Shown here one piece after another: positions 33,730 through 48,872 of a DNA stretch of 64,000 bases. A program made the translations under genes and the position numbers. Origin of the DNA: Acidomonas methanolica (lineage in GTDB: Bacteria > Pseudomonadota > Alphaproteobacteria > Acetobacterales > Acetobacteraceae); assembly GCF_004346035.1 (NCBI RefSeq), contig NZ_SLZN01000001.1:124001-188000 (forward strand), written 5' to 3'. The stretch's first letter is position 1, and every line of letters starts with the position of its first letter. The notes beneath the pieces were generated by a model. That model did not search any database. It had not been told where the DNA came from and worked only from the letters and a program-made list of their open reading frames with translations.

Positions 33730-34983
33730 ATGGACGTGACCCTTTCCCTTCCCAAGGACAAGATCCGGATTCTTCTTCTCGAAGGTATCCATGAAAGCGC
33801 CGTGGCCTATCTCAACGCGCAGGGCTACGGGCAGATCACGCGCCTCAAGACCGCGCTGGAAGGCGACGCGTTGCGGGAAGCTCTCAACGGCGTCCATATG
33901 GTCGGCATCCGGTCGCGCACGCAGCTCACCGCGCCGGTCATCGAGGCGGCCGACCGGCTGATGGCGATCGGATGTTTCTGCATCGGAACGAATCAGGTCG
34001 ATCTGAAGGCGGCCCGCATCGCAGGTATTCCCGTGTTCAACGCTCCGTTCAGCAATACCCGCTCGGTGGCCGAACTCTCGATCGCCGAAATCGTCATGCT
34101 GATGCGGCGGATTCCGTCGCGTTCCGAGGCCTGCCACAAGGGCGGCTGGGACAAATCCGCCGACAATGCCTGGGAAGTGCGCGGCAAGACGCTCGGAATC
34201 GTCGGCTACGGCTCGATCGGCTCCCAGCTTTCCGTGCTGGCCGAAGCCATGGGCATGACGGTGCTCTATTACGACGTGCAGGACAAGCTTCCGCACGGCA
34301 ATGCGCGCCCGGTCGCCAGTCTTCAGGCGCTGCTCGCGCAGTCCGATGTGGTGAGCCTGCATGTGCCGCAGACGAAACAGACGCGCAGCCTGATCGGCGA
34401 GGCGGAAATCCGCGCCATGAAGCCGAATTCCATTCTCCTCAACAACGCGCGGGGATCGGTGGTGGATCTCGCCGCCCTCGCCGCCGCCCTGAAGGACGGG
34501 CATCTGATGGGCGCGGGAATCGACGTCTTCCCCGTCGAGCCCAAAGGCAATGGCGACCGATTCGAATCGCCGCTTCAGGGGCTGCCGAACGTCATCCTCA
34601 CCCCGCATATCGGCGGATCGACGATGGAGGCGCAGGAGCGCATCGGCGTCGAGGTGGCCCGCAAGCTGGTCGAATATTCGGATGTCGGATCGACGCTCGG
34701 CGCGGTGAATTTCCCCGCCGTCCAGTTGCCGGAGCGCCCGCACGGGACGCGCTTCATGCATGTCCATCACAATCGCCCCGGTATCTTGCGGCAGGTGAAC
34801 GAGATTTTCTCGCGCGAGGGCTGCAACATCGTGGCTCAGTTTCTTCAGACGGACGGCGAGGTCGGTTACGTGGTGGTGGAGACGGACGCCGCTCCCGACC
34901 ATGATCTCGACACCCGCCTGCTGGAGGAGTTGCGCACGCTGGACGGCACCGTGCGCGCCCGGCTGCTCTATCGCCGTTCATGA
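33730..34983 (+). CDS. serA: D-3-phosphoglycerate dehydrogenase
   Basis: SerA oxidises 3-phosphoglycerate, the first step of serine synthesis. The 417-residue protein is the E. coli type: substrate domain with GCFCIGTNQVDL, NAD loop GIVGYGSIGSQLSVLA near residue 157, NNARGSVVD near 240, the catalytic Glu and His in TPHIGGSTMEAQERIG near 292, and a C-terminal ACT domain (about 345-417, HHNRPGILRQVNEIF) for serine feedback. The start at 33730 is the family start. The 48-bp gap to comM holds an inverted repeat and a CtrA-type sequence. Confidence 0.95.
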   Translation: MDVTLSLPKDKIRILLLEGIHESAVAYLNAQGYGQITRLKTALEGDALREALNGVHMVGIRSRTQLTAPVIEAADRLMAIGCFCIGTNQVDLKAARIAGIPVFNAPFSNTRSVAELSIAEIVMLMRRIPSRSEACHKGGWDKSADNAWEVRGKTLGIVGYGSIGSQLSVLAEAMGMTVLYYDVQDKLPHGNARPVASLQALLAQSDVVSLHVPQTKQTRSLIGEAEIRAMKPNSILLNNARGSVVDLAALAAALKDGHLMGAGIDVFPVEPKGNGDRFESPLQGLPNVILTPHIGGSTMEAQERIGVEVARKLVEYSDVGSTLGAVNFPAVQLPERPHGTRFMHVHHNRPGILRQVNEIFSREGCNIVAQFLQTDGEVGYVVVETDAAPDHDLDTRLLEELRTLDGTVRARLLYRRS

Positions 34984-34993
34984 TCGTCCGGCG

Positions 34994-35024
34994 TTAACCG
35001 CGCCTTAACTTCAAGCGCGGTTAA
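34994..35024 (+). promoter_or_regulatory. CtrA-type site inside a perfect inverted repeat, before comM
   Basis: The gap before comM holds TTAA (34994-34997), 7 bases, then TTAAC (35005-35009), an exact match to the CtrA consensus. The same DNA forms a perfect 10-bp inverted repeat, TTAACCGCGC (34994-35003) and GCGCGGTTAA (35015-35024), with an 11-base loop and no U-tract. It ends 8 bases before the comM ATG, so it could act as a CtrA operator, a serA transcript end, or both. Confidence 0.4.
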
Positions 35025-35031
35025 TGGGGGC

Positions 35032-36534
35032 ATGTCGCATGCCCTCCCCTCCGGACCGGCCCTCGCCCGCGTCCAAAGTTTCGCCTTCGCCGGGATCGAC
35101 GCCGTGCCGGTCACGGTCGAGGTCCAGATTTCGAGCGGCCTTCCGGCGCTGCTCGTCGTCGGCCTGGCCGACAAGGCGGTGGCCGAGGCGCGGGAACGCG
35201 TGCGCGCCGCGCTGGGAGCGCTCGGAATCGTCCTGCCCCCGAAGCGGATTCTCATCAATCTGGTCCCTGCAGATCTTCCGAAAGAAGGTTCACATTTCGA
35301 CCTGCCGATCGCCCTTGCCATTCTGATCGGCATGGGGCTGATTCCGCCGGAGACGGGCGAACGCTACGCGGCCATGGGCGAGCTTTCGCTGGATGGACGG
35401 CTCAACCCGGTCGCGGGCGTCCTCTCGGCGGCTCTCGGAGCTTTCAGGGTGCAAACCGGGCTGATCTGCCCGCGCGCGCAGGGCGGCGAGGCGCGCTGGG
35501 CGGGTCCGGACCTTTCGGTGCTCGCCGCGCCGGATTTGAGAAGCCTGATCACGCATCTGCGCGGGGAAGCGCCGCTCGATGAGGGTCCGGAGACGGAGCC
35601 GCCGTTCGAGAAGGCATCGCTCGATCTGTCAGATGTCAGGGAGATGGCGCTGGGACGGCGCGCGTTGGAAATCGCCGCGGCGGGCGGCCATAACCTGCTT
35701 TTCTCCGGCCCGCCGGGTGCAGGAAAATCCATGCTCGCCGCGCGTCTGCCCGGAGTGCTCCCGGACCTCACGCGCGAGCAGATGCTCGAAACCACACGCA
35801 TTCACGGCGCCTGCGGACACTTGCACGGCGGTCGCCCGATCACCCGGCCGCCCTATCGCGATCCCCATCACTCCGCGAGCCTCGCCGCGCTGGTGGGTGG
35901 CGGGCCGAAATCGCGACCCGGAGAGGTCAGCCTGGCGCATAATGGCGTGCTGTTTCTTGATGAATTCCCGGAATTCTCGCGTCAGGCGCTCGAAGCGCTG
36001 CGTCAGCCGATCGAAACCGGACAGATCAGCGTCGCCCGGGCGGCGCAGATCACCCAGTATCCGGCACAGTTCCAGCTTGTCGCCGCGATGAACCCCTGTC
36101 GCTGCGGCCATCTCGGCGATCTCGAACGCGCCTGCCGCAAAGCCCCCCGTTGCGGCGAGGAGTATACGGCGCGCCTCTCCGGCCCCATGCTCGACCGCAT
36201 CGACCTCTTCGCTGAAATCCAGCCCGTTTCACCGATTGCCATCAGTCGCGCGGTGGCGGGCGAGTCGAGCGCCGCCGTCCGCGCGCGGGTGGAGGCGGCA
36301 AGGGCGCGGCAGATCGGACGACAGGGACACAGCAACGCGCGGGCTGATCCGAGCGGCTTCGCGATCGACGAAACGGCACGCGAGATGGCGGAACAAGCGG
36401 GGACACGTCTGAGGCTCTCCGCGCGCGGGCTGACACGCCTGCTTCGCGTGGCCCGCACCATCGCGGACATGGCCGCCGGCGACTCGATCACGCGCCTCCA
36501 CATGGCCGAGGCGTTGAGCTTCCGCCGCCGATGA
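35032..36534 (+). CDS. comM: ComM/YifB-family Mg-chelatase-like AAA+ ATPase
   Basis: A 500-residue hexameric helicase that in transformable bacteria extends recombination of imported DNA. Domains: N-terminal Lon-like substrate domain (about 1-170), Walker A GPPGAGKSMLAARLPG near residue 226, Walker B GVLFLDEFPEF near 305, the NPCRCGHLGD loop near 348 and a C-terminal helical domain. Length is standard. GGGGG precedes the ATG. The upstream gap contains a CtrA-type site; in Rhodobacter capsulatus comM is among the CtrA-controlled genes needed for receiving gene transfer agent DNA, which makes regulated DNA uptake a reasonable guess. Confidence 0.94.
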   Translation: MSHALPSGPALARVQSFAFAGIDAVPVTVEVQISSGLPALLVVGLADKAVAEARERVRAALGALGIVLPPKRILINLVPADLPKEGSHFDLPIALAILIGMGLIPPETGERYAAMGELSLDGRLNPVAGVLSAALGAFRVQTGLICPRAQGGEARWAGPDLSVLAAPDLRSLITHLRGEAPLDEGPETEPPFEKASLDLSDVREMALGRRALEIAAAGGHNLLFSGPPGAGKSMLAARLPGVLPDLTREQMLETTRIHGACGHLHGGRPITRPPYRDPHHSASLAALVGGGPKSRPGEVSLAHNGVLFLDEFPEFSRQALEALRQPIETGQISVARAAQITQYPAQFQLVAAMNPCRCGHLGDLERACRKAPRCGEEYTARLSGPMLDRIDLFAEIQPVSPIAISRAVAGESSAAVRARVEAARARQIGRQGHSNARADPSGFAIDETAREMAEQAGTRLRLSARGLTRLLRVARTIADMAAGDSITRLHMAEALSFRRR

Positions 36535-48465: not shown

Positions 48466-48762
48466 TCACGCACCGGCGGAAGCCGCTCCGAAAAGACGAT
48501 ACTGCTCGAGCGCCTTTTCCGACGGAAACTGCGCCATGACGACTCCGCCGGGAGAAAGGAACTGGGTAACCACCATATTTAGCGCGGGATCGATGTATCG
48601 ATACGGATTGGCCTTCTCCTCACCGGCGGCAGCCGTGTCGAGAACCCGGGAGGGGCCGGATGAAACGCGCCCGCTCTCTGGGCCGGTGCCGGACGTGCTG
48701 ACGCCCTTCGCTGCGGAAGCAAAAGCAACCGATGCGGTATTCACCCCGTCAACAAGCGACAT
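48466..48762 (-). CDS. FlaG-like small protein
   Basis: A 98-residue soluble protein, preceded by GGAG about 10 bases before the ATG at 48760-48762. The first 50 residues are Ser/Ala/Gly-rich and low in complexity. The rest, YRYIDPALNMVVTQFLSPGG followed by VVMAQFPSEKALEQYRLFG, follows the FlaG pattern (Asp-x-x-x-x-x-V-V, then G-x-V-x-x-Q-x-P-S-E-x-A-L). FlaG is a small flagellar accessory. No flagellar gene is adjacent, so this is by pattern only. A TTAA-N7-TTAA sequence lies about 100 bases upstream. Confidence 0.5.
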   Translation of the reverse strand: MSLVDGVNTASVAFASAAKGVSTSGTGPESGRVSSGPSRVLDTAAAGEEKANPYRYIDPALNMVVTQFLSPGGVVMAQFPSEKALEQYRLFGAASAGA

Positions 48763-48857: not shown

Positions 48858-48872
48858 TTAATGCTTTGTTAA
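48858..48872. promoter_or_regulatory. CtrA-type TTAA-N7-TTAA sequence
   Basis: TTAA at 48858-48861 and TTAA at 48869-48872, seven bases apart, match the CtrA core (the sixth base C of the ideal form is A on one strand and G on the other). It lies in the gap between the dnaE stop and the FlaG-like gene, about 96-110 bases before that gene's ATG. Confidence 0.35.

Follow-up and report, generated by a model that had tools for sequence, protein, structure and literature searches.

A candidate CtrA box upstream of comM, recurring across genera, and a natural Glu51 CtrA that may no longer use phosphate

We analyzed a window of 64,000 nucleotides from a genome of 3.68 Mb (G000; the other G numbers denote further genomes of the same family), in which an exact TTAA-N7-TTAAC pattern lies directly ahead of comM. 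With a conserved box, a glutamate at residue 51 of CtrA and no ChpT found, the best reading of the site is a conserved CtrA box under a regulator that may have given up phosphate. It is probably a working box, at which CtrA would bind the two half-sites and set the expression of comM in concert with that of flagellar and surface genes. The original prediction of a CtrA site is supported at the level of sequence by the presence of a ctrA gene, an excess of TTAA pairs at spacing 7, comM boxes in other genera and targets shared between genomes against a clean control. The features of the window are as follows.

33730-34983, plus strand: upstream gene, 417 aa, a serA-like phosphoglycerate dehydrogenase (identity by eye; start taken at MDVTLSLP)
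34992-35026, plus strand: stem-loop enclosing the box (RNA fold, 12-pair stem, z -2.9)
34994-35009, plus strand: CtrA-type box TTAACCGCGCCTTAAC, an exact TTAA-N7-TTAAC
35032-36534, plus strand: comM, a YifB family Mg chelatase-like AAA ATPase adjoining the box (NCBIfam TIGR00368, 486 bits, cut-off 362)
48466-48762, minus strand: 98-aa ORF, downstream of the second spacing-7 place
48858-48872: the other spacing-7 TTAA pair of the window, some 95 bp ahead of the 98-aa ORF

Direct reading bore out the predicted TTAA at 34994 and TTAAC at 35005, exactly seven bases apart. The pattern is matched on both strands (34994-35009 on the plus and 34993-35008 on the minus strand), with 10 bp between the serA-like stop codon and the box and 22 bp between the box and the comM ATG at 35032. 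By chance the window would hold 0.01 exact matches, and two matches occurred in 0/100 shuffles. The 98-aa ORF behind the second pair matched no family above cut-off in a family search; its C-terminal part we take, by eye, to be FlaG-like. A relative of this ORF in G078 likewise has a spacing-7 TTAA pair upstream.

The genome does encode CtrA, as the CtrA interpretation demands. The gene (G000:C1:333411-334130, equal to L016:1069-1788) lies about 174 kb from the box on the same contig, and its product combines a receiver (PF00072) with an OmpR-type DNA-binding domain (PF00486). It scores best with NF045991, at 310 bits where the next family reaches 158; the 310 bits are below the NF045991 cut-off of 350, in a model whose name points to Rhodobacter-type CtrA. 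Thirteen proteins of the genome carry an OmpR-type DNA-binding domain above the Pfam cut-off, and CtrA is the top NCBIfam family for this one alone. Each of the remaining 12 is best matched by a different family, and the CtrA model reaches at most 176 bits where it is listed for them.

The phosphorelay hallmarks, Asp51 and an acidic pair at positions 8-9, are missing from this protein, where Glu occupies the phosphate-acceptor position 51 and Ser8-Asp9 replaces the acidic pair. A CtrA match was found in 105 of 120 family genomes. Of these, 81 have Asp at residue 51, 17 have Glu and 2 have Ala, and the residue is unreadable in 3; the remaining 2, with Ser or Arg, may not be CtrA. In 16 of the 17 Glu51 genomes Asp8 is gone as well. 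ChpT (PF10090) gave no match in G000 while the Caulobacter control was positive, although a divergent ChpT could be missed by this search. Across the family, PF10090 matched 78 of 120 genomes, of which 71 were counted as ChpT. Seven weak matches (G001, G009, G017, G027, G074, G098 and G113) were set aside, as their best matches lie in long frames of 625-1036 aa that look like histidine kinases; the match in G088 is also weak, yet was counted. By this count all 64 ChpT-positive genomes with a readable residue 51 have Asp51, and ChpT was counted in 0/17 Glu51 genomes, among which G009 has a sub-cut-off match in a 693-aa frame. It is also uncounted in 17 Asp51 genomes.

The association between Glu51 and the loss of ChpT is to be taken as clustered and not as a series of independent events. 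In a CtrA tree of 99 rows, in which 47 of 96 inner branches are open, long branches occur and the trait columns were kept in, Glu51 was clustered and needed about 6 changes. Comparing the loss of Asp51 with that of ChpT on this tree left 4 usable pairs, too few for any significance.

Which regulator would own the sites is the question on which the CtrA reading has its strongest competitor. Recognition of both half-sites by a different regulator, such as another of the 13 OmpR-type proteins, is conceivable in view of the degenerate CtrA receiver; we nevertheless consider it unlikely. The pattern is the CtrA consensus obtained by ChIP-seq in Hyphomonas, according to the portion of PMC7200025 consulted, the 12 remaining OmpR-type proteins fall into other families, and motility genes are among the targets. 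Moreover, the DNA-binding side of CtrA is well kept. Between Glu51 proteins and the CtrAs of ChpT-positive genomes, the DNA-binding domain is 69% identical and the receiver 49%, compared with 77% and 71% among the latter themselves, and the segment EPEMKIIDVFICKLRRKL is retained when the Glu51 consensus is compared with that of the Asp51 proteins, a single K/R change apart.

The predicted inverted repeat overlapping the box is present, with 15-nt arms that are 87% complementary and fold into the 12-pair stem. In this rival reading the CtrA match is a by-product of a stem-loop, which would either terminate transcription of the serA-like gene or serve as an RNA element within the leader of comM. 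The fold itself speaks for this (z -2.9 for the 12-pair stem, -3.7 in a shorter stretch), as does a good fold in G055 (z -3.45). However, the element resembles an intrinsic terminator in its stem only and lacks the T run after it, a terminator scan made no call there, the fold is unremarkable in G025 (z 0.21), G047 (z -0.85) and G022 (z 0.68), and the same pattern is found before unrelated gene types. Because G025 and G047 retain the exact box without the hairpin, the suggestion of a transcript-end hairpin is unsupported, and we regard it as improbable.

Counting the exact pattern in the genome is, taken alone, no signal, because the 5 distinct places (8 strand matches) in 3.68 Mb are about equal to the 6 of a reversed control pattern. 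That control differs in word content and gave an unclear answer, so spacing controls were used instead. Among 39 TTAA pairs with spacings N3 to N12 in G000, 14 have spacing 7 and every other spacing accounts for 1-5 (Poisson tail 1.4e-6); compared with the total of 15 for N8-12, the binomial p is 8e-5. The proposed rarity of the site by chance holds for the window, and the spacing-7 excess is informative where the genome count is not. An excess of N7 over N8-12 is also seen elsewhere, with 11 v 9 in G047, 14 v 21 in G025, 6 v 6 in G055 and 7 v 7 in G008.

Pooled over the 64 ChpT-positive Asp51 genomes, the N7 ratio is 2.0. For the Glu51 genomes it is 1.0 in all 17; without G039, G053, G060 and G100, each of which has more than 100 control places, the other 13 give 1.9. 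No N7 excess was seen in the Glu51 genomes G022, G039, G041, G053, G069, G072 and G100. The 20 genomes that lack a CtrA match at threshold or have another residue 51 gave 147 v 472 when pooled, a ratio of 1.56. In the Asp51 genome G054, eight similar TTAA-N7-TTAA places (TTAAGGCAGGCTTAA-like) lie within 31 kb (G054:C24:1292-32119), an arrangement more suggestive of a repeat than of regulation; removing G054 changes the pooled Asp51 ratio from 2.01 to 1.95. As a separate observation, G098, a 6.7 Mb genome of the same family with Asp51 and no counted ChpT, has 45 TTAA pairs at spacing 7 and 22 at five other spacings combined, which gives it the lowest N7 p among the 120 genomes.

Conservation ahead of comM was surveyed at 30 loci, with comM starts picked by script and unsure in some (e.g. 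L064). The serA-comM order is found at 17 of the 30, and the prediction of conservation in relatives stands for part of these: an exact box precedes comM in four genomes, G000 and the three other genera G025, G047 and G055, and is absent or imperfect in the other 13. The exact boxes start at -38 (G000), -40 (G025), -39 (G047) and -60 (G055, minus strand), and boxes with one mismatch occur in G022 at -39 and in G078, whose CtrA is the nearest sampled (82%), at -40. Counted from the start codon picked, 5 of these 6 boxes begin between -38 and -40. The ComM proteins of the four genomes with exact boxes are 63-73% identical. G055 carries its comM box alongside Asp51 (and no counted ChpT), so Glu51 is not a prerequisite of the box. 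The 13 loci without the serA-comM order gave zero matches with up to one mismatch. No box was present at the two named Asaia comM loci; the G084 comM locus, 4,482 bases long, is identical to that of Asaia lannensis NBRC 102526, a member of the Acetobacteraceae, to which G000 belongs as well. The comM locus of G069 has 63% GC and is not AT-rich. Among the best 80 of 582 relatives in a scan of ComM in named genomes, an exact box lies upstream in 1/80 and a box with one mismatch in 13/80, and the comM box is therefore not general beyond this lineage.

Next, we looked at which genes flank the spacing-7 places of G000 and of five further genera. Of 65 loci, 59 lie outside script-kept ORFs of at least 120 aa (the G078 set comprises 13 loci for 14 places, as two overlap). 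Neighbouring genes were chosen by a script based on codon bias and length, and two proteins counted as related if a one-way search gave 35% identity across half of the shorter one. With the same script in five genera, 22/52 N7 places have a related target in another genome, compared with 0/58 N8-12 places (Fisher p 4e-9, in a test that takes places as independent, which is untrue for sites in related genomes). The N7 set holds 73 neighbouring proteins with 27 related pairs and the N8-12 control 47 with none, a difference in pairs that the smaller control set cannot explain. Two groups among the 27 pairs may consist of paralogues, namely those of a GGDEF protein and of one WbsX-type protein (38-43%). 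The shared targets are listed here by gene.

RND efflux gene: spacing-7 place in 5/6 genomes (L095:1501-1515; G008, G025, G047 and G078), 244-387 bp upstream
comM: spacing-7 place in 4/6 genomes
motB: spacing-7 place in 4/6 genomes
Protein without known family: spacing-7 place in 3 or 4 of 6 genomes
DUF1217 gene and divergent ATP-grasp gene: spacing-7 place in 3/6 genomes
WbsX-type glycosyltransferase: spacing-7 place in 3/6 genomes
fliF: spacing-7 place in 2/6 genomes

Slow change may account for some of the sharing, as the RND pump and certain other targets are highly conserved (77-93%); motB, with 41-48% identity, and comM do not belong to this class. The expectation that flagellar genes carry the site is confirmed for motB and fliF; the one for comEC failed, this gene having no exact box in G000. 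Neither comF nor dprA was among the spacing-7 neighbours run against Pfam or NCBIfam. Further places were seen in individual genomes: in G000 one lies 78 bp upstream of mutS and is unshared with the other genera, and in G055 they adjoin fliL, a rod-type protein, flagellin and a HAMP-domain protein. A place in G025 (L288:1501-1515) sits between ctrA and a fliI-type ATPase gene, which suggests self-control of CtrA in that genus; the ctrA promoter of G000 has a 2-mismatch site only.

Chance, meaning that the pattern simply fell into an intergenic gap, could appeal to the similarity between the exact genome count and the reversed control. It is highly improbable considering the spacing-7 excess in G000, the recurrence of the exact box before comM across four genera and the sharing of targets confined to N7 places. 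The LexA box is GTTC-N7-GTTC, of the same N7 spacing. Control of comM by LexA (SOS) with an accidental TTAA pair is weaker still and barely credible, even with ComM listed beside LexA and RecA as a core stress-response protein in the consulted part of PMC6473078, since comM is repeatedly preceded by the TTAA pair at -38 to -40. Exact GTTC-N7-GTTC or GAAC-N7-GAAC was found in 0/27 anchorable comM upstream regions (of 30), and one-mismatch matches of this type in 4/27, G000 among them.

CtrA is a model of the phosphorelay-driven master regulator. Under the CtrA reading, the protein would occupy both half-sites just ahead of comM and co-ordinate this gene with motility and surface genes; the effect on comM would presumably be activation, its sign depending on the transcription start. 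Glu51 may hold CtrA in an active-like state without phosphate, as laboratory D51E alleles mimic phosphate, and control would then act through CtrA amount or stability and not through the CckA-ChpT relay. Alternatively, Glu51 might be a neutral substitution in a receiver that is no longer signalling. In either case the Rhodobacter model as originally written is not transferable as it stands, because G000 has a Glu51 CtrA and no ChpT was found. On balance, we lean slightly towards a branch of the acetic acid bacteria having freed CtrA from the phosphorelay, with ChpT lost, Glu51 in place and a small regulon of swimming, surface and DNA-uptake genes kept, comM being a more widely conserved member. 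If true, this branch would offer a natural experiment on CtrA acting independently of phosphate: natural Glu51, no detectable ChpT and conserved boxes would separate the DNA-binding role of CtrA from its phosphate-dependent role. The link between CtrA and DNA uptake would, as far as sequence comparison indicates, also extend from the Rhodobacterales to a distant family. Among open-licence PMC titles and abstract openings, we found neither a natural Glu51 CtrA nor a function of CtrA in acetic acid bacteria described; in the covered part of PMC12733265 CtrA appears solely as a Caulobacter ClpP substrate, and the covered main text of PMC13214618 is without CtrA.

Compared with known systems, sites of this type have the same half-sites, spacing, intergenic setting and occurrence ahead of flagellar genes as the CtrA box of Caulobacter, Hyphomonas and Dinoroseobacter. 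Flagellar genes of Dinoroseobacter shibae are predicted with the TTAA-N7-TTAAC consensus in an excerpt of PMC4046655, and the excerpted Hyphomonas ChIP-seq study (PMC7200025) gives 222 bound sites, a number that is not like-for-like with the 14 TTAA-N7-TTAA places found in G000 by sequence alone. In the Rhodobacterales, the covered part of PMC6473078 reports comEC/comM/comF of D. shibae and competence family proteins of R. capsulatus as CtrA-regulated; G000 likewise has the comM box, but its comEC is without an exact box. Weak, missing or degenerate parts of the CckA-ChpT relay are in print for the Rhodospirillales, as far as the sections of PMC8116508 and PMC2877005 at hand go. CtrA D51E is described as a phosphomimetic laboratory allele, e.g. 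in R. capsulatus, in the available part of PMC6363796; the G000 protein has the same residue 51, but here in a natural sequence and in a group of 17 genomes without counted ChpT. Altogether, the box itself has the standard CtrA consensus, and the variant part of the system would be the natural Glu51 CtrA without detectable ChpT.
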